From Salinivibrio sp. ES.052 (lineage in GTDB: Bacteria > Pseudomonadota > Gammaproteobacteria > Enterobacterales > Vibrionaceae), in NCBI RefSeq assembly GCF_900141775.1, contig NZ_FSRI01000001.1:496001-560000 (forward strand): 64,000 nucleotides of DNA, written 5' to 3'. Positions 12,456 through 41,437 of this stretch are shown here, piece after piece; position 1 is the first letter of the stretch; the number at the start of each line of letters is the position of its first letter. The notes beneath the pieces were generated by a model. That model saw nothing but the letters and a program-made list of their open reading frames with translations, ran no database searches and had not been told where the DNA came from. A program made the position numbers and the translations under genes.

Positions 12456-12457
12456 AG

Positions 12458-15970: not shown

Positions 15971-15978
15971 GGTGAACT

Positions 15979-17106: not shown

Positions 17107-17188
17107 TTCAGAGAATGGAGGCTCTGATGGATGTAGAAACTTTCATGATTATATATACTAGACACCTAGCAAAAAACTGCGACGAACT

Positions 17189-17974: not shown

Positions 17975-18017
17975 CAGTGTTGCATCCACAAGCCTAACTA
18001 CCACAACAAGGTTAACA

Positions 18018-18824: not shown

Positions 18825-18900
18825 TGTGACGATAGCGATCGCCTAAAACGACGATATTCCAAATGATTTTCCGCCCCTCAGCCAACGTGTAGTAAAGAAC

Positions 18901-23830: not shown

Positions 23831-23834
23831 CTGT

Positions 23835-24722: not shown

Positions 24723-24749
24723 CGTCGCGTTGACAAATTTGGAGCCATC

Positions 24750-25484: not shown

Positions 25485-26285
25485 ATGGCAGTTATTATCA
25501 TGCTACCGTCAAAAGACAACATACAGCTATTTAAAACCATGGTAAGGCGCGAAGTGAAATCGCGTTATCAAGGCACCCTGCTTGGTTTTTTTTGGAACCT
25601 TGTCACCCCACTGCTCATGTTAGCGATTTATTCAACCGTCTTTTTAGTGGTTTTTGAAGCGAAATGGCACCTTGAGGGCGCCCAAACCGCTGATTACGGC
25701 CTCATGCTCTTTATTGGCATTTTAACCCACGGCTTTATGGCCGAAGTCCTGACCGCATCCAGTGGCATTATTCGTAACAACAGCAACCTAGTAAAAAAAG
25801 TGCGTTTCCCAGTTGCTATGTTACCGATGATCTCCGTGTGTAGTGCCGGGGTCAATTACCTCTTTGGCCTATTACTCGCCTTTGCCTATGCTGGGGTCAA
25901 CCACTACCTGCAAAACCCTTTGATGATTCTCTACTTGCCGTTAGTGCTCGTGGTGTATTTAACCACCCTGACCGCGATAGCCTACTTAGTGGCCTCGCTG
26001 GGATTATACATTCGCGATATCGTCCAAATGATGCCGGTATTGATCACCGCGTTACTGTTTACCAGCACCGTTTTCTTCTCGGCACAGTCGGCCCCCGATA
26101 TGCTCGCCAAAATACTGTATTTTAACCCGATTAGCCCCGTCGCCGATGCCATCCGCGATATTGTTTATGGCAAGCCGCCACAACTGGGGCAACTCGCGGT
26201 TTTGTTTATTGTCAGCTGTCTCGCATTTGTCGCCAGTTACAGCTTATTTCGCCGTTTACGGCCAAACTTTGCCGATGTGCTATGA
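25485..26285 (+). CDS. wzm: ABC-2 type O-polysaccharide exporter, permease subunit
   Basis: Inner-membrane half of the Wzm/Wzt exporter. 266 residues with six hydrophobic segments and the family opening MVRREVKSRYQGTLLGFFWNLVTPLLM near residues 15-40. Start ATG 25485, or ATG 25500 as an alternative. Its ATPase partner wzt is not adjacent as usual but begins 13 kb downstream, with a whole type II secretion operon and an S-layer-like gene in between. In this pathway the glycan is polymerised in the cytoplasm and exported complete. Confidence 0.93.
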   Translation: MAVIIMLPSKDNIQLFKTMVRREVKSRYQGTLLGFFWNLVTPLLMLAIYSTVFLVVFEAKWHLEGAQTADYGLMLFIGILTHGFMAEVLTASSGIIRNNSNLVKKVRFPVAMLPMISVCSAGVNYLFGLLLAFAYAGVNHYLQNPLMILYLPLVLVVYLTTLTAIAYLVASLGLYIRDIVQMMPVLITALLFTSTVFFSAQSAPDMLAKILYFNPISPVADAIRDIVYGKPPQLGQLAVLFIVSCLAFVASYSLFRRLRPNFADVL

Positions 26286-26402
26286 GTATTCAGGAGCGTG
26301 CGTAATCGCCCATGCATTCTATCCATTAAAGCAGTACAGAAACGCTGCCACATAGTGTAAGCTGCCACGTTGCACCAAGACCAATACCAATACGGGGACA
26401 CC

Positions 26403-28073
26403 ATGTTTTTAGGTGAGCGATTAAAACAAAAACAACTCATCACGGATGACGACATAGAGCAAATCCTCGCTATTCAACAGCAGTCATCCATGGGTCAGCG
26501 TCAACGGTTTGGCGAATTATGCATTTCCCACGGCCTGTGTTCAGAGCAAGATGTATTAATTGCCCTGCATGAACAACTTGAATTACCGATGATGGCCGAC
26601 GTGCTCAGCCAATATTTTGGTGATGATTTACCCGGCAACGAACTGGCACTGTCACTGTTCCAGGCCCAATGGTGGCAACAGCGCCAAGCGTTTCCTCTTC
26701 ATCGTGACGGTGACCAAATTTTAGTAGCCCAAGCCGATATTTGGGACGACTTTGTCTTTGAAGCATTGCTGCACCAACACCAGCTCCAAGCCACGCCAGT
26801 GCTGTGTTCTAACTACGAATTGCGGCAGCTTATTTCCGGATTTGATGCTGAACGTCAAGCCGGCAATGCCCTGATTGAACAAGAAAGTAGCGCCGCGCCC
26901 GTGGTTAAATTTGTTAACGAATGTATCCAGCGTGCGATCAAAGAGAACGCCTCAGACATTCACTTTGAAGTGAACAAACAGCAGTTTTTTGTGCGCTACC
27001 GCGTCGATGGCGTACTGCGCACCGTTGACCAACCCGGCATGGCCCAACATGCCGCGATTCTCTCGCGTATTAAGCTAATGGCCGGGCTCGATATTTCAGA
27101 AAAGCGCCTCCCGCAGGATGGCCGCATTCGCGTCAGGTTATCAGGCCAGCAAGTGGACATTCGTGTCGCCACAACACCCACGGTTTATGGTGAAAATGCT
27201 GTATTGCGTTTGCTCGCCAACGAGAACACCCACAAACCCGAGGAGAAACAAAAAACCCTCGACATGTTGCCGGATCAAAAAGCCATTATTGAGGAAATCT
27301 TGCACAAAAAAACCGGGATATTCTTAGTCACCGGCCCAACGGGTAGTGGTAAAACTACCTCGCTATACACCTTGTTAGGGCGCGTGAATGATGATCAAAC
27401 CAAAATCATCACCGTTGAAGACCCCGTCGAATACCAAATGAAAGGCTTGACCCAAATTCAAGTTAATGCTGATATTGGCTTAACCTTTGCCAGCGTATTG
27501 CGCTCGGCACTGCGCCAAGACCCCGACATCATGCTGATTGGTGAAATGCGTGATAAAGAAACCGCACAAATCGCAGTACAATCGGCATTAACCGGCCACT
27601 TTGTACTGTCTACCTTGCACACCAATGATGCACCCAGCAGCTTTATTCGTCTAAAAGACATCGGCATTCCTGACTATTTGATCAAATCCACCATCGTGGG
27701 GGTCATGGCACAACGCCTCGTCCGTAAACTTTGTCCCCATTGCAAACGGCCGGATCCTAACGGCGACCAGGCTGCGCACCAAGTCGGCTTTGCCGACGTG
27801 CAGCAAAACTGGGGTGCCTTACTCCCCGCCGATATTCAGTGGTACAAAGCGAGCCCAGAGGGCTGTGAGCACTGCAACAGCACCGGCTATCATGGCCGCT
27901 TAGCCATTTTTGAACTCTTAGGCTGGTCAGATGCCGAAACCGCAGAGCTCGACATGCGCCAGCTGCAAGCGGTGGCACGAGAACAAAATATGCGCTCGCT
28001 GCGTCAAGATGCTCTAATGCGCGCGGCACGTGGCGAAACCACCCTTGAAGAAGTACTACGCGTGGTGGGCTAA
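26403..28073 (+). CDS. gspE: Type II secretion ATPase GspE
   Basis: Cytoplasmic hexameric ATPase that powers pseudopilus assembly. 556 residues: an N-terminal GspE-N/MshEN-like domain (1-150), a middle domain, then Walker A GPTGSGKTT (about 310-318), Asp box and Walker B with the LIGEMRD segment. A zinc region has CPHC (about 443) and CEHC (about 487). ATG 26403 has GGGGA upstream; the frame is open 33 bases more without a ribosome site. First gene of an eleven-gene gsp operon in the order E F G H I J K L M (C-like) D. Confidence 0.95.
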   Translation: MFLGERLKQKQLITDDDIEQILAIQQQSSMGQRQRFGELCISHGLCSEQDVLIALHEQLELPMMADVLSQYFGDDLPGNELALSLFQAQWWQQRQAFPLHRDGDQILVAQADIWDDFVFEALLHQHQLQATPVLCSNYELRQLISGFDAERQAGNALIEQESSAAPVVKFVNECIQRAIKENASDIHFEVNKQQFFVRYRVDGVLRTVDQPGMAQHAAILSRIKLMAGLDISEKRLPQDGRIRVRLSGQQVDIRVATTPTVYGENAVLRLLANENTHKPEEKQKTLDMLPDQKAIIEEILHKKTGIFLVTGPTGSGKTTSLYTLLGRVNDDQTKIITVEDPVEYQMKGLTQIQVNADIGLTFASVLRSALRQDPDIMLIGEMRDKETAQIAVQSALTGHFVLSTLHTNDAPSSFIRLKDIGIPDYLIKSTIVGVMAQRLVRKLCPHCKRPDPNGDQAAHQVGFADVQQNWGALLPADIQWYKASPEGCEHCNSTGYHGRLAIFELLGWSDAETAELDMRQLQAVAREQNMRSLRQDALMRAARGETTLEEVLRVVG

Positions 28074-28138
28074 TCGGCGACCTTGCAACGTAACCATGGA
28101 CACGATCATCAACGCGAAACGAAAACGCGAGAACCAGA

Positions 28139-29320
28139 ATGAAGCAGTTTAAATACGTGGCACGGCGTAAAGATGGCACCCTGATAGACGGATGGATCCG
28201 CGCTGAAAACGATCTCCAGGCCAAGCGCCAGCTGCAACAACAGCAACGCCAAGTGGTGATGCTGAACGAACAGCGTGATGTGAAAAGCAAGCGGATAAGT
28301 AGGGAAACGCTTATTACGACGCTGCGCGAACTGGCGACGTTACGCCAAAGTGGCATGCCGCTTGACCAATGTATGCAATCACTACAAGAAAACGTCGGCG
28401 ACAAACACATGGGCGCGGCGCTAAAACGCCTGTATTACGACATTGAATCGGGTGCCAGCTTGTCAGAGGCGATTGCGGCCCAGCCTGATGTCTTCCCTTT
28501 TTATGTCGCCTCCATGTTGCGGTTGGGCGAGGCTAGTGGCCAACTGGGTGAAGCGCTATTCAGTGTCTCAGAGCGTATTGAGCGTGAAGAACAATTGGTC
28601 AGTGAAATAAAATCGGCGCTCACCTATCCCGCGTTTTTGTTAGTGGTGTGCGTGGTAGTGATTTTCTTTATGTTTCTTTATGTGATCCCCAACTTTGAGA
28701 CCATGGTACAAGGCAATGGTGACGCCGGCGCGCTTGGCACCTTGCTTAATATCTCGGCCTTTTTTAATGATAACCTCATGCTCATTAGTGCGGCGGTCGC
28801 GGCAGCCGTGGGGGGGCTCTATTACGGTGCTGTGTATGGACACTTAAAAGACACCGTATTGCAAGGACTCTCTACCATTCCTTTGTTCGGTAACCTCATT
28901 GATGCATGGAACATCGTACAGTTTTCCAGTAGCATGCAAAAGCTTTTGCAGGCGGGCGTTGAGTTGGTGGAGTCGGTAGAGATCACCTTAAACAGCCTAT
29001 CTGATGCACGTCTTCGCAAGCGGCTACAGCACGTGGTTTTACGGGTGCGAGAAGGCCGTGGTCTCGCTGAATCCTTAGCCGAATACGGGCTATTTTCTCC
29101 GATGGTGATTCGGTTGATCCAAACCGGTGAGGCTGGTGCATCATTAGTGCCTTGCTTTAAAGAGATCAACGCCCTTTACGAGCGTCGTCTCTCAAAGGGT
29201 TTAAAACAAATTTTAACCATTCTTGAGCCCTTGGTGATTGTGATCATGGGTGGCATTGTCGGCAGCATCATGATTGTATTGATTTCCGGCATTATTTCAG
29301 TCAATAACATTAGTTTATAA
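28139..29320 (+). CDS. gspF: Type II secretion inner-membrane platform protein GspF
   Basis: Polytopic platform protein that links the ATPase to the pseudopilus. 393 residues with two T2SSF domains (about 60-180 and 260-385) and three hydrophobic segments (about 163-186, 213-233, 357-385). LATLRQSGMPLDQ and LLQAGVELVESV are the repeated hallmarks. Lies 65 bases after gspE. Confidence 0.95.
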   Translation: MKQFKYVARRKDGTLIDGWIRAENDLQAKRQLQQQQRQVVMLNEQRDVKSKRISRETLITTLRELATLRQSGMPLDQCMQSLQENVGDKHMGAALKRLYYDIESGASLSEAIAAQPDVFPFYVASMLRLGEASGQLGEALFSVSERIEREEQLVSEIKSALTYPAFLLVVCVVVIFFMFLYVIPNFETMVQGNGDAGALGTLLNISAFFNDNLMLISAAVAAAVGGLYYGAVYGHLKDTVLQGLSTIPLFGNLIDAWNIVQFSSSMQKLLQAGVELVESVEITLNSLSDARLRKRLQHVVLRVREGRGLAESLAEYGLFSPMVIRLIQTGEAGASLVPCFKEINALYERRLSKGLKQILTILEPLVIVIMGGIVGSIMIVLISGIISVNNISL

Positions 29321-29404
29321 TCGCGGTGCGCGCTGTCAAACGCACGAAACAGCCCAAGCGGTGATAACAAGGCTAAGCGGTTACAACAAGAGTAAGAGGA
29401 CAAA

Positions 29405-29815
29405 ATGAACAAACGTAAACAACAGGGTTTTACCCTCATCGAGCTACTTGTGGTACTCGTGTTGATTTCATTACTGGCCGGCCTCGTTGGCCCCAAACTG
29501 TTTAACCAAGTGGGCTCATCCAAAACCAAAGTGGCGGGCGCGCAAATTGAGCTACTATCATCGGCACTGAAAACCTATCGTCTCGACATGGGCCAATACC
29601 CGTCTACTGAGCAAGGCCTAAACGCGTTAATGGACAACCCCGGCGACAGCGCCATGTGGAACGGCCCCTACTTAGCCAAAGACTTACCGCTTGACCCGTG
29701 GAACCAGCCTTATCATTACAAACTCAAGCCCAACTATGAGTTTGCGCTGTACACCCTAGGCCGTGATAACCAAGAAGGCGGTGAGGGCGAAGATCAAGAC
29801 GTAGGCGTGAAGTAA
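29405..29815 (+). CDS. gspG: Major pseudopilin GspG
   Basis: Main subunit of the T2SS pseudopilus. 136 residues. A short basic leader ends in QQG, cut before FTLIELLVVL with Glu5 present. The C-terminal part has the calcium-binding loop around LGRDNQEGGEGEDQD, typical of GspG. AGAGGA precedes the ATG. The prepilin peptidase that must process it is not in the window. Confidence 0.96.
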   Translation: MNKRKQQGFTLIELLVVLVLISLLAGLVGPKLFNQVGSSKTKVAGAQIELLSSALKTYRLDMGQYPSTEQGLNALMDNPGDSAMWNGPYLAKDLPLDPWNQPYHYKLKPNYEFALYTLGRDNQEGGEGEDQDVGVK

Positions 29816-30246
29816 TGCGCGCACGCGAGTGCCACCCCCCACACACCGCGCGGCTATCGCGCGGTTTTACCATGGTAGAGATGTTAGTCGTGATTGCCCT
29901 GATGGCGGCGGTATCGACCATGGTGGTGCCGAACATGTGGGGGCAATATCAGCGCTTTCAGCAAACCGAGCAAATCGAGCGCTTTTGGCAAGCCATTAAC
30001 CAGCGCACCAGCGAAGTCCGCAACCAAGGAACCACGTTAATTGTTGATGCGGAGCAACCTGAATGGCAAGCTTTAGCCGCCAAACATCAACTGACACTAG
30101 TCGCCAGTGATCGGATCATTATTCGCAGTGATGGTTTTATCAAAGGTGGCGCGTTAAACCTGGCCATTAAAAATGACCAAAAAGATAAATGGACGCTACG
30201 TGTCAGCACCCCCGATGGAGACGTTAACATTGTACCTCGCCGCTAA
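29815..30246 (+). CDS. gspH: Minor pseudopilin GspH
   Basis: 143 residues with a 16-17 residue leader ending SRG before FTMVEMLVVIALM, so Glu5 is kept. The remainder is a small soluble domain. The start ATG overlaps the gspG stop by one base. Assignment as GspH rests on position between G and I and on size. Confidence 0.85.
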   Translation: MRARECHPPHTARLSRGFTMVEMLVVIALMAAVSTMVVPNMWGQYQRFQQTEQIERFWQAINQRTSEVRNQGTTLIVDAEQPEWQALAAKHQLTLVASDRIIIRSDGFIKGGALNLAIKNDQKDKWTLRVSTPDGDVNIVPRR

Positions 30247-30637
30247 CAAAACGCGTCAATCCCGCGGCTTTACCCTGATTGAAGTGGTGGTTGCTCTCGC
30301 TATTCTTACCGCTGGCTTCAGTGTGATCTTTAAGCTGTTTCAGCAATCGGGGATCACCGCCACCCGTGTGGTCGCGACCCAACAGCAAGTCAATGCAGAG
30401 CAATCAGTATTCAGTGCGCTTAAAGCCATCAACCCGGCTGAAACCAGTAGCGGACGAGATCAAGCGGGCGATGTCAGCTATCAATGGCAATCAAACCCCA
30501 TATCACCATTACTACAAACAAGAAGCAGTGATGGTACAAGCCCTTATTATGTGCAGCTCTATAAGGTCACGGTAGAGTATCAGCTCAATAACCAAACGAA
30601 TGCGTTTTCTTTTGAGCAACTTGGCTGGAGTGAATAA
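30215..30637 (+). CDS. gspI: Minor pseudopilin GspI
   Basis: Prepilin-like protein with SRG followed by FTLIEVVVALAILTAGF, the typical GspI opening. About 140 residues. Start is uncertain: ATG 30215 inside gspH gives an 18-residue leader, while TTG 30230 has GGAG nine bases upstream and gives a 13-residue leader. Overlaps the end of gspH, so translation is coupled. Confidence 0.85.
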   Translation: METLTLYLAANKTRQSRGFTLIEVVVALAILTAGFSVIFKLFQQSGITATRVVATQQQVNAEQSVFSALKAINPAETSSGRDQAGDVSYQWQSNPISPLLQTRSSDGTSPYYVQLYKVTVEYQLNNQTNAFSFEQLGWSE

Positions 30638-30653
30638 TGAGGGGAGCAGTAAG

Positions 30654-31361
30654 ATGAAAAAAAATAACAACGCGGCGCTTGGATTCACCCTAATTGAAGT
30701 ACTTATCGCGCTTGCTGTTTTTTCATCAGTGATTTCCCTCGTGATGTTTGGGCTGGATCAAGGTCGGTTACAATGGTCCAAATCGACGGAGAGGGCAAAT
30801 ACCTACCAAGAGTTGCAATTGAGAAAGCAATGGCTTAGCCAGCTTTTTAATCAAGCAAATGCAAGTATGTTCAAGCAAGGTTACGGGAGTGAAACAGCAT
30901 TCTTTTATGGCGATCAAAAAAGAGTCAAGTTTCTAAGCAACGCCCCCATCATAGATGGCCCAGGATCCTATGCGACTGTTGAACTCACAGTTGAAGAGAA
31001 AGATAACCAAAAGGCATTATTATTTCAGCAGTGGGCTTACACAGACCCGTATCTCACGCAAACAGCGGAGGCGCAATCATCACAAAGCTTGGTATTGTTA
31101 GATAATATCAGCGATGTTCAGTGGCAGTATTACCTTTCAGCACGCACTGAGCCAACATCGATGGAAATTCGATTTGGTGGCTTTAGGTCACGCCCTGAAG
31201 GGTTTTGGAGTGATCAGCCATATGACGCTGATTATGAACAAGTTATTCCCCCTATGGTTCGTTTGAGTTTTCGCTGGCAGGGGAGCGCCTATCAATGGCA
31301 GTTTTATTTGCCAATGAAATCAGAAGCATACAACCAGGGTGATAGTCTAGAGGTAAAATGA
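30654..31361 (+). CDS. gspJ: Minor pseudopilin GspJ
   Basis: 235 residues with a leader ending ALG before FTLIEVLIALAVFSSV and a C-terminal soluble domain with the LSFRWQG-like final strand. ATG 30654 has AGGGGAG upstream; the open frame extends back into gspI but without a site. Ends in ATGA overlap with gspK. Part of the pseudopilus tip complex I-J-K. Confidence 0.88.
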   Translation: MKKNNNAALGFTLIEVLIALAVFSSVISLVMFGLDQGRLQWSKSTERANTYQELQLRKQWLSQLFNQANASMFKQGYGSETAFFYGDQKRVKFLSNAPIIDGPGSYATVELTVEEKDNQKALLFQQWAYTDPYLTQTAEAQSSQSLVLLDNISDVQWQYYLSARTEPTSMEIRFGGFRSRPEGFWSDQPYDADYEQVIPPMVRLSFRWQGSAYQWQFYLPMKSEAYNQGDSLEVK

Positions 31362-32287
31362 GTATTACGTTCAAGAAACAGAGAGGCGTAGTGTTACCCC
31401 TGACATTGATTATTCTTGCTGTCCTTACTGCGATGGCGAGTATTGTTATCCTGCGCAGTGATCGGAGTATCGAGCAAGCAACATATGTCCGAGACAAGTG
31501 GCATGCTCGCCTAGATATTCATAATGCGGAACAGCGTCTTTTCTTTGCTATGTATGGTGGCGAAAGCCAATCTGGCGGTTTCCAATTGGGCGAGACACTG
31601 TTACGCACTGATAGCGCACCAACAAGATTGTCAAATAACGTTTGGGTCTCATTGCAAGATGCAGACGGATTGGTCGGCCTAACTTTTGTAGATAAAGATC
31701 GGCTCTCAAAAGTTATGAGGCATTTTTATCCTGAGCCCCAGGCGAGCAACATTGTTAGCCGCATCATCGCTTGGCAGAGTACAACAGGGACGACGCTAAC
31801 AGCAACTGAGGGGCCAGAGCCACGCTATGATCTGTTTCGTAGTCTTGACGAGCTGATGCTTATACCCGGTATTAGCGCAGAGGACTTTAATGGATCCTGG
31901 ACGATGAAAGGCGAGAACCGACTCACTAACTGCTGCCAATTTGGCCTGAGAGATCTCGTGTCCATTCGCGCCCGAACCAGCCCGAATTTAATCGCGATGC
32001 CGCATGTGTTACTAAAGATTTTATATGGACTCAATGATGCAACGCTCGCGCGATTATCGCGCCTAAAGCGTGATGCAAACTGGCGAGGGGTGGCTTCATC
32101 ATTGCGAAATATGGGAGTCCCGTTTACGTCCGACAGCCAGTTCCCAGGTAAAGAATACATTGTTAGATATCAGTCTGGCGATATTCGGGCGAGAGGTCGT
32201 TATGAAATTCTGCCTTATCAGTTTCCGCCCAAGCGCATGACGTGGTACTTTCCCGATCAGTATCGCTATTTTGACTCTCGAGATTAA
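31358..32287 (+). CDS. gspK: Minor pseudopilin GspK
   Basis: 309 residues. The leader ends QRG before VVLPLTLIILAVLTAM. As expected for GspK, Glu5 is missing, which suits a tip position. The T2SSK helical region (about 95-250) follows, containing SLDELMLIPGISAEDF (helix-hairpin-helix-like). It caps the pseudopilus with GspI and GspJ and may help choose substrate. Confidence 0.92.
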   Translation: MSITFKKQRGVVLPLTLIILAVLTAMASIVILRSDRSIEQATYVRDKWHARLDIHNAEQRLFFAMYGGESQSGGFQLGETLLRTDSAPTRLSNNVWVSLQDADGLVGLTFVDKDRLSKVMRHFYPEPQASNIVSRIIAWQSTTGTTLTATEGPEPRYDLFRSLDELMLIPGISAEDFNGSWTMKGENRLTNCCQFGLRDLVSIRARTSPNLIAMPHVLLKILYGLNDATLARLSRLKRDANWRGVASSLRNMGVPFTSDSQFPGKEYIVRYQSGDIRARGRYEILPYQFPPKRMTWYFPDQYRYFDSRD

Positions 32288-32300
32288 TAGGCAGTAACAG

Positions 32301-33431
32301 GTGATTAAGCAACTACAAAAACAGTGGCTAGTATGGCCAGCGTGTTATCGTGAAGACAATCCAAGTTTAAAAAAGGCTGGGCGCTTCGACAAAGTGATTG
32401 GGCTCGTTCCCCAGCAACTTTGTCTCTTCAAAACATTCTACTATCAATGCGATCTTGTTGCTCACAACGAGTTAAAAGATTGTGTGAAAAATGAAATAGA
32501 GCAACTCGTTGACTGGAAACAGGTCGCTTTACACTTTTGGACAACCAAGCGTGATGAGCAATGGCTGGTATCCGTATGGTTTTGGGATGCCGATAGCATC
32601 ACTTTCACTGATAGCGTGACTCACATTGTGCCTGCGCTAGCTTACTACTTGGCATGTACCTCAGCAGACAGAGGAACGCTGATATACCAAGAACGTGCGA
32701 TCGACAATACGGGTAAAAGCGACCAGGTGTCTTGGGGAGTTGTATGGCAATCGCCGCAGTGTCTTGAACAGCTTTATCCGCTTAGTTCCCCGCTTCATTA
32801 TAGAAGAATAGAGACGCAACTGGCAGCGCAGGACGAACGAGTGTTTAGTAACGCAGATCCGGATAGCTGCGTCGTTATCAAAAACAAACCGTTAGTGCCG
32901 TTTAATCAAACACCGCGCGCCGCTGTGTTGGCACAAGGTAAGTGCGGCAACCAGTTCGACATCGATAACCCATGGCGTTACTGGAAAACAATAGTTATGT
33001 TCTGCGTCTTGCTAGCGGCATATTTGAGCGCCGATGGGGCACTGATCAATTACCAGCTAAACCAAGCTGACCAACGAGTGAGTCAATTGGCACGTGACAC
33101 TACGCAGCTTCAAACCCATCGCGCTAAAGCGCTAGAGCAACAAAAACTTCTGAAAGAGTACAACCAAGCACGAGAGAGGCAGCAACTCGTGGCACGTATT
33201 ATGAACAAACTCGCGAACAATCTAAGTAAAGACGTGATTATCGAACGTTTTACATACCAAAATAAAAAAATTGTTTTGAAAGGCTCGATTGAGGACACGC
33301 TTGGCTTATTAGAGTCTATTTCAAATATTGATGAGGTAACAAGTGCGCGTTTATTGGGTGAGGTAACGCAAACTGAAGCCGGTCGTCAGGAGTTTCAGGC
33401 GGAACTGCAAGTGAAGGAGGCTGGTTCATGA
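32301..33431 (+). CDS. gspL: GspL-like assembly protein
   Basis: 376 residues: a cytoplasmic N-terminal domain (1-230) of weak similarity to the actin-like GspL/PilM fold, one membrane helix (about 230-250), a coiled coil (about 255-305) and a small periplasmic ferredoxin-like domain, as in GspL/PilN. Recognised mainly by architecture and by place after gspK. GTG 32301 is preceded by CAGGT-like bases only. ATGA overlap with the next gene. Confidence 0.78.
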   Translation: MIKQLQKQWLVWPACYREDNPSLKKAGRFDKVIGLVPQQLCLFKTFYYQCDLVAHNELKDCVKNEIEQLVDWKQVALHFWTTKRDEQWLVSVWFWDADSITFTDSVTHIVPALAYYLACTSADRGTLIYQERAIDNTGKSDQVSWGVVWQSPQCLEQLYPLSSPLHYRRIETQLAAQDERVFSNADPDSCVVIKNKPLVPFNQTPRAAVLAQGKCGNQFDIDNPWRYWKTIVMFCVLLAAYLSADGALINYQLNQADQRVSQLARDTTQLQTHRAKALEQQKLLKEYNQARERQQLVARIMNKLANNLSKDVIIERFTYQNKKIVLKGSIEDTLGLLESISNIDEVTSARLLGEVTQTEAGRQEFQAELQVKEAGS

Positions 33432-34054
33432 TTGATGTTATTCAACAAAAATGGCAAGGATCCTCGTTGAAAGAGGAGCTTTCAAGTCCACTTGTACAAT
33501 GGGTGAGCTTGCTTTGTGTGCTTGTTATTATAGGTCTTGCTATCATAGACCCTTATTTGCAATGGCGTGCGGGCGTTGATCAACGCCTCGATCAAAAGCA
33601 GCTTCAACTCGGCAAGTTGCAAACGCTCAAAGCCAACGAGAGTGCCATTCAACAATGGATTCAAAAAATGGATGCAGCGTTTGCCCAGGCACAGCAAGGG
33701 CTGATTGATGAACGCACCAATGGGCGTGCGATATCTAATCAAGTAAACGCATTCGAGGACGTATATCGTCCTTTGGGCCTAAAATTCACAGGGCGACGTT
33801 TTGCTGAACCCGTAATGACTCCTTGGTTAGGAGAGAATGTGCAGTCAAACTGGCGGCTTCAAGGAAGCAGTGACGACATCCTCTATCTGCTAACACGATT
33901 GGCCAACCAACCAAAAATCATGGAACCAGTTTTTGTGGAAATCAAACAAGTTAATGCCTCTAGACGTAGTAAAGAGAAAACGTACGAGATAGCGATTAAT
34001 TTGCGAGGGTATAGAAAAATGGTGCTGTCCCAGCTAAAAGCGAGGTCGCAATGA
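33428..34054 (+). CDS. gspM: GspM-like assembly protein
   Basis: 208 residues with one membrane helix (about 26-45), a coiled coil (50-95) and a periplasmic ferredoxin-like domain, the PilO/GspM layout. It partners GspL in the inner-membrane platform. ATGA overlaps at both ends show tight translational coupling. Named by architecture and position. Confidence 0.78.
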   Translation: MIDVIQQKWQGSSLKEELSSPLVQWVSLLCVLVIIGLAIIDPYLQWRAGVDQRLDQKQLQLGKLQTLKANESAIQQWIQKMDAAFAQAQQGLIDERTNGRAISNQVNAFEDVYRPLGLKFTGRRFAEPVMTPWLGENVQSNWRLQGSSDDILYLLTRLANQPKIMEPVFVEIKQVNASRRSKEKTYEIAINLRGYRKMVLSQLKARSQ

Positions 34055-34557
34055 AACTGGGTAAGGCATGGAGCAGCGAACACAAGCTTCTAGCAATGGC
34101 ATGTGGCTTAGCAATGGTGGGGCTAGTGCTTACATATTGGCAGATACATTCTTTGTCTATAGCTGATACAAGCAAGACTGCTTTTAACTCACCGAAAGGG
34201 TATGAATTTATTGAGGTCGCTCCCCCTCCGGGAAACATCTTCATTGAAGGGCGAAGGATTGCGTCGCGTGATAAAAACAAAGACGAAGAAGCACGCCCGC
34301 CTAAAGAAGCGACTACCAGTGACTTCGTGCTAGCCAGTATTATTGAGCGAGGTCACAAGAGCATCGCTATATTCATTGCAGACAACAAACGCATCAGCTT
34401 ATCTCCAGGACAGCAAGATCCCTTGATCGGTAAATTAATCCTATTGAGAGGAAACCAAGCGACAACAAGTTTGGCTGATGGCACTGAAAAACAGTGGAAA
34501 CTGTTTCCTATTTCCAACCCAGGCAAACCAAATAAAGAGGAAACCCCATCATCATGA
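34051..34557 (+). CDS. Small GspC/PilP-like inner-membrane protein
   Basis: 168 residues with one N-terminal membrane helix (about 13-31), a charged linker with proline, and a short C-terminal beta-domain (about 95-160: FVLASIIERGHKSIAIFI, ISLSPGQQ, LLRGNQATTSL). That domain has the look of the homology region of GspC or of PilP, which contacts the secretin. It is much shorter than ordinary GspC and has no PDZ domain. It sits immediately before the secretin with an ATGA overlap, the PilP position. Function as the platform-to-secretin connector is inference. Confidence 0.68.
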   Translation: MKLGKAWSSEHKLLAMACGLAMVGLVLTYWQIHSLSIADTSKTAFNSPKGYEFIEVAPPPGNIFIEGRRIASRDKNKDEEARPPKEATTSDFVLASIIERGHKSIAIFIADNKRISLSPGQQDPLIGKLILLRGNQATTSLADGTEKQWKLFPISNPGKPNKEETPSS

Positions 34558-36677
34558 GTGGTGTAAAACGTAAAATAATCAGGTGTCGTTCGTTAGCCAC
34601 AGCATTGGTCCTTGCATCGATGCTGGTGGGGTGTGCGAACTTCAAACCCCTACCACCCAACACATACGCAACGCCGCCTAATGGCAGTCAAACCAACGAA
34701 ACCACCATTGTAGGAAAAAACAATGAGGCAGCAGAGGGACAACCGTTAAAGCCTGGGCAGTATGTACGGTTTGACGAAAGCATTCGTAGTGCGCCTTTAC
34801 TACATGCAGCAAAAACAAACACAGCCGTTGATAAAGCGCTAGGGTTGCCCAATGAGCCAGTAAAGCTAAACGCGGATGAACTTCCTGTTAACCACTTTAT
34901 TAACTTAGCGCTCGGTGACGTACTGGGTGTGAATTATATCGTCGATAATGATCTTTCGGAAAATACTTCGCCAATCACATTACGAGTGAACAAGTCCGTC
35001 ACGCCCGTAAGAATGCTTGGGCTAGTAGAAGAAGTGCTTCAAGTGAATGGCATTGCGTTGGTGCGTGAAGATGATCTTATAAAGGTCATTCCTGCCGCTA
35101 AAACGGATAACCAAACCCCTGAACTGTTGAATCAGTCAGTCGAACCAATGCTGCGATACGGCAAAGTCGCGCAAATTATGCCAATTTACTATTTGTCAAT
35201 TAATCAAGCCTCATCAATGGTCTCCAAACTGCTGCGAGAAGGCAGTGGTGGTACTGTATTAGTACAAACCCACCTCAACTCGTTGATGGTGGTAGCACAA
35301 CAAAAAGAGATCAAGCGCGTAGAAAACTTATTAGCTAAACTAGACGTGCCGAGCAAGTCAGCCAGTCATATGGCATTAGCAACGCCCCGATACAAAACCG
35401 CCTCGGAGCTCTCGAAATCTCTGAAAGCGGCCTTAGACGCAGCCTCGATTCCAACCTCGATAGGACGAGGCACTCACGGCGTGATTTTGACGCCAGTAAA
35501 CAGTGAACAGCTACTCATCTCGTCAAGTACAAAAGCGTGGTTGCGAGTTGCTCAGGAATGGCTGAAGCGGCTTGATATCCCAGAAAAAATAGAGGGTAAA
35601 AACGGTGTCTATGCCTATTACATGAAAAATACCAAAGCGTCAGATGCGTGGAATGTCGTCTCGACGATATTCGGCGGGAAAGAGGCGAAAAACGGCAATA
35701 CCCAAAAAGCGGCACAACAAAATATAGTGGAGTCGGCCAGCGGCAATGGGGTGACACCAGGCAATGTCGGTTTTCAGCGTTTAGGAAGCAATACCGCGGG
35801 TGCCATGAGTGTGGTAGACAAAAACTTTCGGGTTGTTATTGATAATAAGCGGAATGCGATTATTTTCCAAGGTCAATATACGGACTATCAGCGCCTCATT
35901 GAACTACTTAAATTTGTTGATCAGCGCCCGCGCCAGGTACTACTCCAAGCGACGGTTGCCGAGGTAAAAGTAGAGGATGGCTACTCATTTGGCACCGAGT
36001 TTAACACCGATCAAGGTGATGTCACCGGCGGGACCAATGGCCTAATCCAAACCGCGGGCAATCTTACCTTAAACGGCGTGTTTGGTGACTTTACGGCGAA
36101 GTTCTCCGCGGCATTAGACTCCGGTAAGGCACAAGTGCTATCAAGCCCGCGCATTATTGCCATGGACCAACAGCCCGCGCGTATCAATATAGGCGAACAA
36201 ATTCAGGTAAAAACGGGTGAGGTGTCAGGGGGAGGAGATGACTCCACCGCCACCATTACCTACCAATATGTTGATGTTGGGATCACATTAGACATTACGC
36301 CAACGATCAACCAGAACGGCCTCGTAGAGCTCATTCTAAGCCAAGAAGTGAGTTCCCAAGGTGTAAAATCAGGGGATAGCATTCCGATTAACCGTCGCTC
36401 GCTGCAAACCCAGCTACTGGCTGACAGTGGTGACACGGTTTACATGGGGGGGCTTATTTCTAAAGACAATAATAGCTCCAAGAAAAAAGTGCCCTTACTA
36501 GGAGACATTCCCCTTCTAGGTGGTCTATTTAGCTACACTGAGGAATCACAAAACTCCACTGAGCTAGTATTATTGATCACACCTTATGTGATCAGTAGCC
36601 GAGATGAAGCGCAATTTTATACCAAAGAATTTAAATCACTCACGGGGTGGGAATTAGCACAAAGCCTACCGCAATAA
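34554..36677 (+). CDS. gspD: Type II secretion secretin GspD, lipoprotein type
   Basis: Outer-membrane gate of the T2SS. 707 residues: signal peptide with lipobox LVGC (Cys27), N0 domain (about 100-170), several N1-N3 repeats (170-460), then the secretin core (about 465-690) with VLSSPRIIAMDQQPARINIGEQI and the final VPLLGDIPLLGGLFSYTEE motif. A lipidated secretin, as in HxcQ, can reach the outer membrane without a separate pilotin, and none is seen. Ends 19 bases before a terminator. Confidence 0.95.
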   Translation: MSGVKRKIIRCRSLATALVLASMLVGCANFKPLPPNTYATPPNGSQTNETTIVGKNNEAAEGQPLKPGQYVRFDESIRSAPLLHAAKTNTAVDKALGLPNEPVKLNADELPVNHFINLALGDVLGVNYIVDNDLSENTSPITLRVNKSVTPVRMLGLVEEVLQVNGIALVREDDLIKVIPAAKTDNQTPELLNQSVEPMLRYGKVAQIMPIYYLSINQASSMVSKLLREGSGGTVLVQTHLNSLMVVAQQKEIKRVENLLAKLDVPSKSASHMALATPRYKTASELSKSLKAALDAASIPTSIGRGTHGVILTPVNSEQLLISSSTKAWLRVAQEWLKRLDIPEKIEGKNGVYAYYMKNTKASDAWNVVSTIFGGKEAKNGNTQKAAQQNIVESASGNGVTPGNVGFQRLGSNTAGAMSVVDKNFRVVIDNKRNAIIFQGQYTDYQRLIELLKFVDQRPRQVLLQATVAEVKVEDGYSFGTEFNTDQGDVTGGTNGLIQTAGNLTLNGVFGDFTAKFSAALDSGKAQVLSSPRIIAMDQQPARINIGEQIQVKTGEVSGGGDDSTATITYQYVDVGITLDITPTINQNGLVELILSQEVSSQGVKSGDSIPINRRSLQTQLLADSGDTVYMGGLISKDNNSSKKKVPLLGDIPLLGGLFSYTEESQNSTELVLLITPYVISSRDEAQFYTKEFKSLTGWELAQSLPQ

Positions 36678-36695
36678 GCACCCCTCTGCATATCT

Positions 36696-36728
36696 CGCCA
36701 CCTAGCATCCTATAGGTGGCGTTTTTTT
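36696..36728 (+). terminator. Rho-independent terminator after gspD
   Basis: A 9-base stem CGCCACCTA/TAGGTGGCG (36696-36704 and 36713-36721) is followed by seven T. It ends the gsp operon and separates it from the S-layer-like gene. Confidence 0.93.
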
Positions 36729-37051
36729 ATCCAATTTAAGCTGACAATTGTGTGACACTTATAGTATTTTGATGACACTCAACTGATGATTGATGAGTAA
36801 AAGTGTACAAAATCACGTCACTTAAACCTTTAGACTTAATTTCGTTTGAAAACGGGATGTTTATCACGAGGGAATACCTTTAAAATATTAAAAAAATAAA
36901 GAAAAACACTTTAAAAACAGATGCTTGTATTGTTTCTGTCTGAGCGTTATTTGTGGTAAATAATCCAGTTTTTACTCTTTAAGTGTGAGCGATGTCTCAT
37001 TTATGCTGTGACAGATGTCTAACCTTTCGTTTTACGTATGGCTATTTCTCA
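36729..37051. other. AT-rich gene-free upstream region of the S-layer-like gene
   Basis: About 320 bases with no credible coding frame, rich in A and T runs (for example near 36875-36915). It may carry regulator sites or upstream promoter elements for the strongly expressed gene that follows. No specific site could be named. Confidence 0.45.
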
Positions 37052-37079
37052 TTGACTTAACAGCGATTATTAATAAGAA
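37052..37079 (+). promoter_or_regulatory. Probable strong sigma-70 promoter for the S-layer-like gene
   Basis: TTGACT (37052-37057) lies 16 bases before TAAGAA (37074-37079) in AT-rich DNA. It would start the transcript near 37086, giving a leader of nearly 200 bases. Confidence 0.5.
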
Positions 37080-37082
37080 TTG

Positions 37083-37107
37083 AGTCGCGCACTTCGGAGC
37101 GCGGACT
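37083..37107 (+). promoter_or_regulatory. 5'-end hairpin of the leader RNA
   Basis: AGTCGCGC and GCGCGGACT pair with one bulge around an inner C(TTCG)G tetraloop. If the promoter at 37052 is right, this stable hairpin stands at or next to the 5' end, a position known to protect long-lived messages such as ompA. Two more small hairpins follow: GGTGC/GCACC, about 37192-37213, and CTCTC/GAGAG, about 37229-37242. Confidence 0.5.
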
Positions 37108-37282
37108 AAAACGTAACGCAACGCTAACCAAGGCTTGAAAAAGTGGCGCAGTGTGCTTAACTGTGTGCAAGGCTTGAAATAGCAAGCGGTAGGTGCGACG
37201 GAAAGTGCACCGGAGTTGATCAAATGGCTCTCTGTCGAGAGTCAGATTTATAAAATGGATCCAACTAAAGGATATAACTAAC

Positions 37283-39190
37283 ATGTTAAAGAAAACCTTT
37301 CTAGCTGCAGCAGTGGCTTCAGTGGTAGCAGCACCAGCGATGGCAGACGTAGAGCTGACATACGGTGGCTTTGGTGCGCCAAGCAACACTATCACGACAA
37401 CTACTTTGGCAGCTGTTACTAAACAACCAGTACTGAGCTTCTCAACCGCGGAAGACCAAGTAGCCGCTGAGTTCGGTGTAAACGGTGACCTGAAACAAAA
37501 CGGTTTCATCACTATCGAGCTAACCGGTAACGCAACTTTCAACGAAAATGAAGTACGTCAGTGGTTGACAGGTAGTGCAGCAGATTTAAGCGATCTTGAA
37601 ATCGATCTACAGCTTGCAACCATCCAAGCGATTGGCGGTACGCTTCAAGGTTCAGCGACTGTACCTGCGACAGAAACTGATTTGTCTAAAGTGTTGAAAG
37701 TGATCCCAACCGGTGCTGGTGAGCACCAAGCGGACTACGCGATCGATTTGGACGGTAAGCGTCTGCGCATCGCACTCAAGCAAACCACCGGCTCTACTGA
37801 CGACATGATTCAAGAGTCTGCTGGTGTTGCTGTTGATGGAGACGTAAACACAGCAGCAATCGCAGCTGGCCTTGCCGCGGATTCAGCAGCACTGACTGCT
37901 GCGGGTGTTGTCGGTGCTTCTGACGGCGCAGACGAATCAGCTCCAGGTAATGCCGACGGTACTGCAGGTTACTTGTTCTCTGATGTGAATGGTACAGCGA
38001 CTACTGACACAGAAAAAGCTGCATACATTCGTGGCTTAGGCCCGACTGGTGTTTCTTATCTTGAAGATCTTGCTGGCTTCGCTACTGGCGATACCACTGA
38101 GACATTGGTTGCTGGCGGTACGGAACTGAACTTTGACTTTGCCAACGCAAACCAAATCTTCAACCTGCAGTCTGGCCAAAACAACGATGTAGCTGTGAAG
38201 ATTGGTGCACTGAAAAACGCCTCTTACTCTGCAGACCCAGTACAATCTGGCAAGCTGTTCCAGCTTGGCGATCTGTTTGAGCTAGAAGCCACTGACTCTG
38301 GTAAGGCAACCGCGCTGGTTTCAACTGGCTTCTTGTCTGTTGACACTAACGATGACACTGTTGCTGACGACAACGACATCGCGGCAAATGGTTTTGAGCT
38401 GTACAACCGTACGTCTAACCAAAACATCCAGTTGAACAAAGTTAACCTAAGCCTACACGGTGACCTGAACGCGTTCCGTGCAGACAATGCGGGTAACTTG
38501 TTGCTGAAAGACGGCACTGCATCAGGTTGGACCCTAGCATCTGACGGTATGTCTGCCACGGCACCTGCCGGTAACGCAGTCCTTCAAGGTGTTAACACTC
38601 TGGACGCAGCCGCTTCTTCAGTAGCAGCAAGCGCGTGGGATGACCTGAACAAGCTGTATGTTGCAACTGATAACGCAACTCCAGTGGAAGCACAGAGCAT
38701 CTCTGTTAAAGCGTCAATCCTTGGTGTTGACCAAGACACCTTCAACGACTTTGACGATACACTGTCTGAGCTGTTCCTAATCACGCGTGACGGTCTGAAG
38801 TTCGATACTATCCTAACGGGTACAACGTCTTCTAACTCTGTTCACATCCGTGACGTATCTGGCATCCTTCCTGAAGAAGGCGGTAAGATTTACGTGACTG
38901 TTTGGGAATATGACGCACACGCACGTGGCGAATCTGGCGAGCGTAACGTACTGGCTGACCGCGAAGAGCTGACTGTACGTCTACCATCTAACGGTGCAGT
39001 AACCGTTGACCCTGCAACCATCGCAGATCAACTAGGCATCGAAGTGGCGCAAAACCGTCAAGCACGTATGCTGTTCGAAGTTGAAACCAATGTAGGTGAA
39101 GTAGCTGTTAAGAAGAAAGACGCTAGCGGCACTGACATCCAAACTGGTTCACAAGCTGAAGAGCGTGACATCGTAGATTTCACTCTGTAA
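37283..39190 (+). CDS. Candidate S-layer protein (exported, acidic, cysteine-free)
   Basis: 635 residues with a clear Sec signal peptide (MLKKTF, hydrophobic core, cut after AMA at 21). The mature part has no cysteine, is acidic and rich in Ala, Gly, Thr, Asn and Asp, and has alternating beta-type segments. Codon use is strongly biased to the forms of highly expressed genes (GGT, CGT, AAC, GAC), unlike the neighbours. AAAGGA precedes the ATG, and the gene has its own promoter, structured leader and strong terminator. It lies between a complete T2SS operon and wzt, as vapA lies next to abcA in Aeromonas salmonicida. Slr4-type S-layer proteins of marine gammaproteobacteria are another possible relative. 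S-layer identity is inference; an abundant T2SS-exported matrix protein is the alternative. Confidence 0.7.
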   Translation: MLKKTFLAAAVASVVAAPAMADVELTYGGFGAPSNTITTTTLAAVTKQPVLSFSTAEDQVAAEFGVNGDLKQNGFITIELTGNATFNENEVRQWLTGSAADLSDLEIDLQLATIQAIGGTLQGSATVPATETDLSKVLKVIPTGAGEHQADYAIDLDGKRLRIALKQTTGSTDDMIQESAGVAVDGDVNTAAIAAGLAADSAALTAAGVVGASDGADESAPGNADGTAGYLFSDVNGTATTDTEKAAYIRGLGPTGVSYLEDLAGFATGDTTETLVAGGTELNFDFANANQIFNLQSGQNNDVAVKIGALKNASYSADPVQSGKLFQLGDLFELEATDSGKATALVSTGFLSVDTNDDTVADDNDIAANGFELYNRTSNQNIQLNKVNLSLHGDLNAFRADNAGNLLLKDGTASGWTLASDGMSATAPAGNAVLQGVNTLDAAASSVAASAWDDLNKLYVATDNATPVEAQSISVKASILGVDQDTFNDFDDTLSELFLITRDGLKFDTILTGTTSSNSVHIRDVSGILPEEGGKIYVTVWEYDAHARGESGERNVLADREELTVRLPSNGAVTVDPATIADQLGIEVAQNRQARMLFEVETNVGEVAVKKKDASGTDIQTGSQAEERDIVDFTL

Positions 39191-39230
39191 GTAATTACCT
39201 ACTAGGTAATAAAGAGACTGAAAATCAAAC

Positions 39231-39257
39231 AAAGCGCCCCCTACGGGGCGCTTTTTT
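39231..39257 (+). terminator. Rho-independent terminator of the S-layer-like gene
   Basis: Stem AAAGCGCCCC with GGGGCGCTTT (39231-39240 and 39245-39254), loop CTAC, then T to 39257. A weaker hairpin ATTACC/GGTAAT (39194-39210) lies just after the stop codon. Together they isolate the gene as one transcription unit. Confidence 0.95.
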
Positions 39258-39357
39258 ATTTGCGCCTATACGTGGGCTGTTACCCGTCAATACGACTTTG
39301 CAAACCGCCTCGCTTTTCCCCATAATAACCGCCCTTAGCCGCTAACTTATAAGCATC

Positions 39358-40701
39358 ATGGTTGTTTCTGTTTTAAAGGTTACCAAAAGTTTTGCCTTAG
39401 CCCGTGGCCCCTGGCAACGTCTACGCCAAGCATTGTGGCCGCGCCCAAACGATGAGCGCTTTTATGCCCTGCGTAACATTGACTTTCACGCCCACAAGGG
39501 CGAAACCGTCGGCATTGTGGGCCATAACGGCAGTGGTAAATCCACCTTACTGCAGCTGATTTGTGGTGTAATGCAACCCGACCAAGGCCGCATTCATCTG
39601 CAAGGCCGCGTCGCCGCCTTGTTAGAGCTAGGCTCTGGCTTTAACCCTGAATTTACCGGGCGCCAAAATGTCTATTTCAATGCCCAGTTATTAGGCCTGA
39701 CTCGCCAAGAGGTAGAAGCGCGATTCGAGGCCATCACCGAGTTTGCCAATATCGGCCGTTTTATCGATCAACCGGTCAAAAACTATTCCAGCGGTATGAT
39801 GCTGCGTTTGGTGTTTGCGGTGGTCATGCATATTGACCCGGATGTCCTCATCATTGATGAGGCGCTTGCGGTAGGCGATGATGCCTTTCGCCGCAAGTGC
39901 CATGCCAAACTAAAACAGCTGCAAGCGAAGGGCGTGACCTTGTTGTTTGTGTCTCATTCTGCGGGGCAAGTGATCGAGCTGTGCGACCGCGCCGTGTTGC
40001 TCGATCAAGGTGAGCTGTTAATGGAAGGCAAACCCAAGCAAGTGGTACAGCAATACCACAAACTGCTGCACATGGAAGGTGAGGAGCGACAAACTTACCG
40101 TCAAGCCATTATCGACGGCCTGCGCGAGACGGATACCAAACCGTCAAAGGCCAAAACAGAGGCCCCGAGTACGGGCGATTATGATCCCGGTGTGAAGCCG
40201 GCCTCCACCATGTGGTACGCCAGCGACGGTGCCCATATTCATCATCCGCACATTGAGAATCAACACGGTGAGACCGTGAATATGCTCAATGGTAGTGAGA
40301 CCTATGATTATGTCTATCAGGTGGCCTTTGACCGCGAAGCCTTTGAGGTGGGCGGTGGCATGATGATTAAAACCGTGTCGGGCTTTGAGCTGGCAGGGGC
40401 GACCTCGACCCGTGATCACACCTTGCGTATTCCTTATGTGGCCGCCGGACAAACGTTAGAAATGCGTTTTCGATTTCAGTGCAACCTACCTAATGGCAGC
40501 TACTTTCTTAACTGTGGCTGTTCGGCGCTGGTTGACGGAGAGCGCCGCTTTTTACACCGAGGCGTCGATGCGGCCATGTTTACTGTGGTAGAACAAAGCC
40601 AGCACGTCACCGGCGCGGTGGATTTGGTATCGCGTATTGTGCCGAGATTGTTGGATGATGAGGTAACGGCGTCATCGGAGGCTGAACCGAGTGCGTCCTA
40701 A
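39358..40701 (+). CDS. wzt: O-polysaccharide ABC exporter ATPase with C-terminal glycan-binding domain
   Basis: 447 residues. The nucleotide-binding domain has Walker A GHNGSGKST (55-63), the signature YSSGM (near 143-147), Walker B VLIIDEALAVGD and the H-loop SHS. A linker (250-285) leads to a beta-sandwich domain (about 285-425) as in Wzt proteins that recognise the capped end of the finished glycan. Partner of wzm at 25485. The separation of the two exporter genes by the gsp and S-layer genes is unusual. The ATG 39358 has only a weak ribosome site. Confidence 0.93.
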   Translation: MVVSVLKVTKSFALARGPWQRLRQALWPRPNDERFYALRNIDFHAHKGETVGIVGHNGSGKSTLLQLICGVMQPDQGRIHLQGRVAALLELGSGFNPEFTGRQNVYFNAQLLGLTRQEVEARFEAITEFANIGRFIDQPVKNYSSGMMLRLVFAVVMHIDPDVLIIDEALAVGDDAFRRKCHAKLKQLQAKGVTLLFVSHSAGQVIELCDRAVLLDQGELLMEGKPKQVVQQYHKLLHMEGEERQTYRQAIIDGLRETDTKPSKAKTEAPSTGDYDPGVKPASTMWYASDGAHIHHPHIENQHGETVNMLNGSETYDYVYQVAFDREAFEVGGGMMIKTVSGFELAGATSTRDHTLRIPYVAAGQTLEMRFRFQCNLPNGSYFLNCGCSALVDGERRFLHRGVDAAMFTVVEQSQHVTGAVDLVSRIVPRLLDDEVTASSEAEPSAS

Positions 40702-41437
40702 TTTATATATTGTCGGGGGACAAAAGTGTGGCACCTCGGCGTTGGCGCACTTTCTCGCCCAACACCCAGATATTGCTCTGGCTCATAATAAAGAAGCCCA
40801 TGTGTTTGATGATCCTGATATGTATTATCAAGGCCCACCACAATGGGATAAGGCCTATCAAAAAGCGTTTGCCCATGTCACTGCCCCGACGCGGTATTAC
40901 TGTGATGCGACGCCGATTTATAGTTATTTGACTGAGTTGCTGCCTCGCATTGCTCATTATTCACCGGGCGCACGGGTGATCATGATGGTACGTGACCCAG
41001 TCGAGCGGGCGATCTCGCAATACCATATGGAAAAGGGCCGCGGCAACGAGCACCGCAGTATGTTAGGCGCGTTTTTAGCTGAGCCTTTCCGGCTGTGGCG
41101 CGATAACCACAATCTGGCATTAGACGCTGCTCGTCGCTGCCATTCATACCTCGATCGCGGGCGTTTTTTAACCCAATTCCAAGCGATTGACCAAGCATTC
41201 GGGCCATACGAGTACATTGTGGTACACAACGATGATTTGCGTTATCACCATCATGAGACCTTGGCGCGCATCTTCGGCTTTTTAGATTTACCTAACCATT
41301 CCATTGTGGCTGAGCCTGTCTTCACTGGCAATTATAGCCAGCCATCGCTAGGGCAAAAAGTCGCCCGCTATTATGCCAAGGCACGCTTAAGCTTAGAATC
41401 CGATTTAATTGCGCAGTTTAAACACCGCGAACAATAA
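40691..41437 (+). CDS. PAPS-dependent sulfotransferase
   Basis: 248 residues with the two cofactor motifs of the family: a 5'-phosphosulfate loop GGQKCGTSA (9-17) and the 3'-phosphate motif VRDPVERAISQYH (100-112). It moves sulfate from PAPS to a hydroxyl group, here probably on the glycan exported by Wzm/Wzt. GTG 40691 lies inside the end of wzt (11-base overlap), so the two are translated together. Together with cysD, cysC and cysN this supports a sulfated surface polysaccharide. Confidence 0.88.
   Translation: MRPNLYIVGGQKCGTSALAHFLAQHPDIALAHNKEAHVFDDPDMYYQGPPQWDKAYQKAFAHVTAPTRYYCDATPIYSYLTELLPRIAHYSPGARVIMMVRDPVERAISQYHMEKGRGNEHRSMLGAFLAEPFRLWRDNHNLALDAARRCHSYLDRGRFLTQFQAIDQAFGPYEYIVVHNDDLRYHHHETLARIFGFLDLPNHSIVAEPVFTGNYSQPSLGQKVARYYAKARLSLESDLIAQFKHREQ

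Follow-up and report, generated by a model that had tools for sequence, protein, structure and literature searches.

A predicted VapA-family S-layer locus inside an O-polysaccharide ABC-exporter cluster of Salinivibrio

The stretch of Salinivibrio sp. ES.052 DNA analysed here (the window: 64,000 nucleotides, positions 496,001 to 560,000 of contig C6, within a 3.57-Mb genome) very probably carries a VapA-type surface-layer (S-layer) locus inserted in an O-polysaccharide cluster of the ABC-exporter kind. By homology, its product would form a coat that is exported by a type II secretion system (T2SS) and bound to O-polysaccharide. Open reading frames (ORFs) and Pfam matches place the genes in a single run on the (+) strand: wzm, gspE-F-G-H-I-J-K-L-M-C-D, the gene of an exported protein of 635 residues, wzt, a sulfotransferase gene and the gene of a 1053-residue glycosyltransferase family 2 (GT2) protein. 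The initial annotation, which had put the T2SS and the 635-residue protein between the two halves of the exporter, was right in both order and coordinates. This plan is already in print for Aeromonas, so the locus is ordinary in kind; as far as sequence can tell, it is a VapA-type relative of the known Aeromonas system in another family and not a new system. What is new is that wzt and the sulfotransferase gene are inherited together with the S-layer gene.

The identity of the 635-residue protein carries this reading. The search against S-layer family models that the initial annotation had proposed gives a match to the NCBIfam equivalog NF050048 (S_layer_VapA) over residues 1-635, at 758.3 bits against a cut-off of 200, and all eight members of alignment A2 (the window protein and seven relatives) match the same model, which places it by sequence among the VapA-family S-layer proteins (SLPs). 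A signal peptide can be read by eye in the translation, and the mature form, with cleavage placed by eye after residue 21, contains no cysteine, its predicted isoelectric point being 4.08; the other nine VapA proteins recovered in this work likewise lack cysteine beyond residue 22. The strong codon bias reported earlier is equally clear. With a codon adaptation index (CAI) of 0.754 the SLP gene ranks first among 45 window ORFs (non-overlapping, at least 200 residues; runner-up 0.535), at the level of the reference set, 25 genes for ribosomal proteins and elongation factors from this genome (themselves 0.65-0.81). The effective number of codons (ENC) of the SLP gene is the lowest among the compared genes in ten of ten VapA loci, with wzt as the sole gene for comparison in two of these. 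Judged by codon bias, expression would be very high. An account of outer-membrane protein profiles in Vibrio rotiferianus also identifies VapA (PMC3262767).

The closest published counterpart is the wbsalmo/A-layer locus of A. salmonicida A450, described in 2015 as rmlBDAC, wzm, T2SS genes, vapA, wzt, a sulfotransferase-domain protein and WbbB (PMC4483657), the same order as in the window, sps T2SS genes (ORF6-16) and WbbB included. That description also has the insertion at the same point of the rml O-antigen cluster, after wzm and before wzt, and the T2SS operon directly 5' of the S-layer gene (E-F-G-H-I-J-K-L-M-orf2-D) is that of the published gene table of Aeromonas AH-1 (PMC4413209). As the A. 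salmonicida paper presents it, deletion of wzt leaves no O-antigen, deletion of vapA removes the A-layer with O-antigen remaining normal, and the crystalline layer is tethered by lipopolysaccharide (PMC4483657); the linked T2SS is described elsewhere as essential and dedicated for S-layer secretion (PMC10765051). From these accounts we infer a similar route for the window protein. It would be made at a very high level from its own promoter, cross the inner membrane by Sec, be exported by the neighbouring T2SS with the help of a prepilin peptidase encoded elsewhere, and crystallise on the cell surface through binding to the O-polysaccharide exported by Wzm/Wzt. The dedicated surface-layer unit postulated by the initial annotation thus keeps its core, backed by VapA membership and the A. 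salmonicida layout, and loses its novelty, since the arrangement had been published for Aeromonas.

The likeness, drawn from the published descriptions, has its limits. The A-protein of A. salmonicida A450 is given as 49 kDa, whereas the window protein is longer, at 635 residues, and the host family differs; the account of WbbB gives it capsule and GT1 domains in addition to GT2, and its window counterpart has two GT2 stretches. A. hydrophila AH-1 (O11) likewise has rmlBDAC, sps T2SS genes and vapA inside an O-antigen cluster, but its gene table shows a truncated wzm before sps and complete wzm and wzt after vapA (PMC4413209), where the window has an intact wzm before the T2SS and wzt directly after the SLP gene. 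Slr4 of Pseudoalteromonas tunicata (PMC7821379) and NpdA of Paracidovorax citrulli (PMC10765051) are encoded beside a T2SS operon, as in the window; they are other proteins, and their descriptions, which as far as their text was accessible report no wzm/wzt interposition, set them apart.

VapA loci were found in ten genomes of three family groups, five in a family sample and five further ones in an order sample, which extends the Aeromonas A-layer locus to the family of the window and two other family groups of its order. The open-licence literature, to the extent that its text was accessible, gave no description of a wzm-T2SS-vapA-wzt locus outside Aeromonas. Five of the 296 genomes of the family sample have the SLP, and exactly the same five have a close GspD (E ≤ 1e-80). 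A GspD at E ≤ 1e-60 occurs in 19 of 394 order-sample genomes, six of them (own genome included) at 41% identity or more and the other 13 at 27-30%. The VapA search, which took seven genomes of that sample, was positive in all five other genomes with a close GspD; the two negatives, G431 and G509, had been included for their Wzt. Among 369 genomes of a class-wide sample VapA exceeded the cut-off in one, the own genome (a match in G715, at 19.7 bits, lay far under it). A profile search of contigs with the GspD alignment returned no GspD of the close type among the best 80 loci listed, all at 21-32% identity, and 72,556 plasmid records gave no match.

The synteny survey suggested at the outset bears the arrangement out across the three family groups. 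In all ten VapA loci wzt follows the SLP gene and the sulfotransferase gene follows wzt, and in nine of ten wzm precedes gspE. Of the ten, seven are colinear and lie on a single contig, that of G319 is divided between contigs, and those of G331 and G098 are rearranged. The window wzm is 48-73% identical to the wzm before gspE in six other loci and 38-40% identical in two more, and rfbA, rfbB and rfbD, used as queries, recover the same gene run in related loci. The three family groups reappear in the trees of GspD and GspE, with which the SLP tree, resolved in part, is compatible; the window SLP is 57-58% identical to those of L037 and L038 and 46% identical to that of L036. A swap of SLP genes between cassettes was considered and is unsupported, the tree leaving the relevant fork open. 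Two local features of these loci may be recorded. Three genomes of family f25 encode a protein of 226-227 residues after gspD (L040:14341-15024, and likewise in L041 and L042), the L040 copy of which matched no model of NCBIfam at E ≤ 0.01 or of Pfam at E ≤ 1e-4. A sulfatase-family protein (L146:8694-10301) adjoins the sulfotransferase in the rearranged locus of G098.

We compared these loci with six related Wzt loci that lack VapA, the five best such matches in the family sample and one (G431) from the order sample. Because wzm and wzt are adjacent after rml genes in all six, as the initial annotation had held to be normal, their separation in the window is a real departure. None of the six has a BLAST match to the window SLP or sulfotransferase, or a T2SS gene between wzm and wzt; one (L140) has a GspD-like ORF, at 29% identity, about 6.6 kb upstream of wzm. 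A tree of 18 Wzt proteins puts the ten cassette members on one side of a branch supported at 97/99 and the eight others on the other; G098, which encodes a second Wzt and an MlaA-like protein upstream of gspE, has that second Wzt among the others. Between cassette lineages Wzt_C is 53-72% identical, and between cassette and non-cassette proteins 26-51%, with no overlap, unlike the ATPase domain, for which the ranges overlap (66-75% versus 49-70%); seven non-cassette Wzt entered this comparison, that of G509 being left out. The proposal that the three systems are useful only together holds in one direction. The S-layer likely requires the glycan; the glycan does not require the S-layer, as the six wzm-wzt loci without VapA and the normal O-antigen reported after vapA deletion (PMC4483657) indicate.

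The window T2SS is of a divergent type. Among the ten proteins from GspE to the GspC-like protein only GspG exceeds its NCBIfam equivalog cut-off, GspD falls narrowly under (Table 1), and the GspC-like protein matches nothing in NCBIfam at E ≤ 0.01 or in Pfam at E ≤ 1e-5. The T2SS had been called complete, and its eleven-gene operon is indeed present, but the two prepilin peptidases that the genome has are encoded outside the window, so that the system is not self-sufficient and lacks the GspO that a stand-alone T2SS would have of its own. Once all eleven operon ORFs had been assigned to other Gsp parts none was left for gspN, for which no family-level search was made. The initial annotation had also allowed that this operon might be the only T2SS of the cell, which it is not: contig C4 of the same genome carries a second one, of housekeeping type, with GspC, D, E, K and L over their NCBIfam cut-offs and F and G recognised by BLAST. 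Identity between the two systems is 24% for GspD, 26% for GspF and 48% for GspE, and the C4 GspC has 319 residues against 168 in the window.

The window GspE carries a diverged MshEN domain at its N-terminus. It matches MshEN PF05157 at 35.3 against a cut-off of 23.1 and reaches 35.8 with NF053729, the MshE-type cyclic di-GMP (c-di-GMP) motif, just under the cut-off of 38. NF053729 is matched by ten of the 11 GspE proteins in alignment A3, the exception being the housekeeping GspE, which has no match. The full double 24-residue MshEN motif with an equivalent of Arg9 is absent from the window GspE, where Phe2 stands at the Arg9 place and Arg35 in the second motif.

The SLP gene is flanked by predicted transcription signals. 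Four promoter-like and four terminator-like sites lie within 36600-39450, which is no excess over shuffled sequences (means 3.1 and 3.0), and we therefore relied on stem length and conserved position. A terminator between the SLP gene and wzt is present in all ten VapA loci, and one between gspD and the SLP gene in five of the eight where the gap is visible. Four leaders from the family, once aligned, share a TTGAC box and, just after it, an identical 16-base hairpin core, of which there is one copy each before the SLP genes of the window, G268, G173 and G199 and, copies of those four places aside, none in the other loci among 184. These signals suggest that the SLP gene is transcribed by itself and that wzt would require a promoter of its own or readthrough. 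No Rfam family reached its gathering threshold within 20000-46000, and the ops/JUMPstart motif GGCGGTAG occurs three times in the window, a number equalled or exceeded in ten of 100 shuffles, with none near rfbB.

The wzm/wzt slot can also hold a different unit. In G509 (L184 and L167) the order is rml-wzm-T2SS, a 465-residue exported protein, a hexapeptide transferase and wzt. The exported protein has no VapA match and matches a profile of Slr4-like proteins weakly (24 bits, E 1.7e-8, with a strong composition bias); its ENC is 30.1 and it has no cysteine. The G509 GspD, 29% identical to that of the window, sits on a long branch outside the VapA-type group; the tree gives its GspE no firm place, and the MshEN motif scores 63.6 bits in it. 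By sequence, G509 appears to represent a separate lineage in which a distantly related T2SS occupies the same slot. Nine other T2SS-linked exported proteins of the order group together, apart from VapA, and we label them Slr4-like by position only. Against these position-chosen proteins the VapA profile has a best E of 0.024, short of significance, and the reverse profile a best E of 0.46 to a VapA protein; a profile-profile comparison with the same position-chosen set gives a match at 82.6% probability that extends no further than the N-terminal 74 columns, near the signal peptide. Two Slr4-like GspE proteins were scanned for the MshEN motif, one with a match under the cut-off and one with none. 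In G494 a short wzm-wzt-like pair (L177:18329-19812) lies about 3 kb beyond the Slr4-like T2SS-linked exported protein.

Several observations weigh against an inserted VapA-type S-layer locus as we read it. The A2 profile finds no related chain in the PDB (0 matches at E ≤ 1), and the locus is in none of the seven other sampled genomes of the genus. In G331 the SLP-wzt-sulfotransferase part is divergent from the rfb-wzm-T2SS part, and in G098 no wzm stands before gspE, a wzm at 31% identity lying instead about 3 kb beyond wzt; since these two arrangements differ, the exact gene order is not essential. It is nevertheless highly improbable that the 635-residue protein is an ordinary T2SS-secreted enzyme or porin: the absence of any Pfam domain would suit that view, but a whole-length match to the VapA equivalog, an acidic sequence free of cysteine and codon bias at the ribosomal level speak against it. 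The S-layer genes may instead have landed between wzm and wzt once, by chance, with no functional coupling to hold them there. The insertion point described in A. salmonicida (PMC4483657) and the occurrence of wzm-wzt without S-layer genes are in keeping with such an event, which we consider unlikely because the insertion has persisted in three families, accompanied by a Wzt and a Wzt_C particular to the cassette, and because the slot in G509 is taken by a distant T2SS together with an exported protein that is not VapA.

Two further proposals build on the S-layer reading. It is tempting to speculate, though the idea is tentative and on balance somewhat doubtful, that the sulfotransferase modifies and perhaps caps the O-polysaccharide, and that the resulting end is what the Wzt_C of this clade recognises in export and what the lattice docks on; coupling through the sugar end would be the reason why SLP, wzt and sulfotransferase travel together. 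The invariant trio, the lack of sulfotransferase matches in the six loci without VapA, the Wzt tree and the Wzt_C identities all agree with it, and in G331 wzt and the sulfotransferase gene have remained beside the SLP gene, with wzm and the T2SS together on the opposite strand. The basis is small, at ten against six loci, the sulfotransferase could have another substrate, and G509 has a hexapeptide transferase before wzt and no sulfotransferase match. Wzt_C domains bind chain ends in other systems, and the same would have to be presumed here; we lowered our estimate of the proposal slightly because the wzm of G098 also lies near wzt. The A. salmonicida paper finds little to say of its sulfotransferase, which leaves room for the proposal; against it, the same paper names no residue of this kind in the O-antigen structure (PMC4483657). 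That unexplained enzyme nonetheless becomes a testable idea on how S-layer proteins choose their sugar anchor. It is also conceivable, if doubtful, that c-di-GMP gates coat export through the MshEN-type domain of GspE, the coat being put on when the cell turns sessile. The matches to NF053729 favour this, as do the equivalents of G11 and G40 of MshE and both motif glutamines (motif as described in PMC5013675), kept in all ten cassette GspE proteins. On the other side, the window score is under the cut-off, Arg9 is reported as required in MshE (PMC4624772), the spacer between the motifs has 9 residues in the window GspE and not 5, XpsE is described as an MshEN domain that has lost binding (PMC5013675), and the domain is not specific to VapA units, as the GspE of G509 illustrates. 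Combining these ideas, the wzm/wzt gap might be a recurring docking site for S-layer export units, the G509 unit among them, with a private Wzt_C and sulfotransferase defining the sugar end of the lattice and MshEN perhaps tying export to c-di-GMP; we hold this broader picture to be speculative and doubtful as well.

Table 1. Genes and predicted signals of the S-layer locus, in window positions.
Feature	Position	Strand	Evidence
rfbB, rfbD, rfbA, rfbC (dTDP-rhamnose genes)	21843-25304	+	rfbC Pfam PF00908; upstream of wzm
wzm, O-polysaccharide ABC exporter permease	25485-26285	+	PF01061 (ABC2_membrane) 79.2 bits
gspE/spsE, secretion ATPase, N-terminal MshEN-type domain (motif match residues 3-58)	26403-28073	+	PF00437 (T2SSE) 434 bits
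gspF	28139-29320	+	PF00482 (T2SSF)
gspG, major pseudopilin	29405-29815	+	TIGR01710 149.4 bits, cut-off 88.85
Minor pseudopilins (gspH-K block)	29815-32287	+	Gene order kept in related loci
gspH	29815-30246	+	Over TIGR02532 (prepilin N-terminal domain); Gsp equivalog below cut-off
gspI	30173-30637	+	Over TIGR02532; Gsp equivalog below cut-off; real start perhaps further in
gspJ	30600-31361	+	Over TIGR02532; Gsp equivalog below cut-off
gspK	31358-32287	+	Gsp equivalog match below cut-off only
gspL	32301-33431	+	Homologous and colinear in related loci; no useful family match
gspM	33428-34054	+	Homologous and colinear in related loci; weak NF040576 match
Short GspC-like protein, 168 residues	34051-34557	+	BLAST homologue at same place in L036-L038 and L040-L042
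gspD/spsD, secretin	34554-36677	+	PF00263 157.4 bits; TIGR02517 320.8, cut-off 351.35
Predicted intrinsic terminator 3' of gspD	36696-36721	+	9-bp stem and T7
Probable SLP-gene promoter, TTGACT-N17-AAGAAT	37052-37080	+	9 of 12 positions match; TTGAC box conserved in four aligned leaders
Conserved hairpin, likely 5' end of SLP mRNA	37086-37103	+	Conservation of 16-base core; fold
VapA-family SLP gene, 635 residues	37283-39190	+	NF050048; CAI; composition
Predicted intrinsic terminator, SLP gene/wzt gap	39231-39254	+	10-bp stem and T-run
wzt, exporter ATPase, Wzt_C at residues 286-423	39358-40701	+	PF00005 (ABC_tran), PF14524; cassette group in tree
Sulfotransferase	40691-41437	+	PF13469 61.5 bits; all ten VapA loci, the window among them, have a homologue after wzt
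Large GT2 glycosyltransferase, two GT2 stretches	41456-44617	+	PF00535; occupies WbbB position of A. salmonicida

The names rfbA, rfbB and rfbD are those we take the genes beside rfbC to bear. Further upstream, a block at 11139-19875, partly of lower GC content, encodes a flippase-type Polysacc_synt protein, a polysaccharide pyruvyl transferase and several glycosyltransferases, which suggests a second polysaccharide system, of the Wzx type, beside the ABC-exporter one. Beyond the locus, large ORFs with low GC content at third codon positions and no Pfam match at E ≤ 1e-5 lie at 50087-51961 (624 residues), 52649-54586 (645 residues) and 59244-62021 (925 residues).

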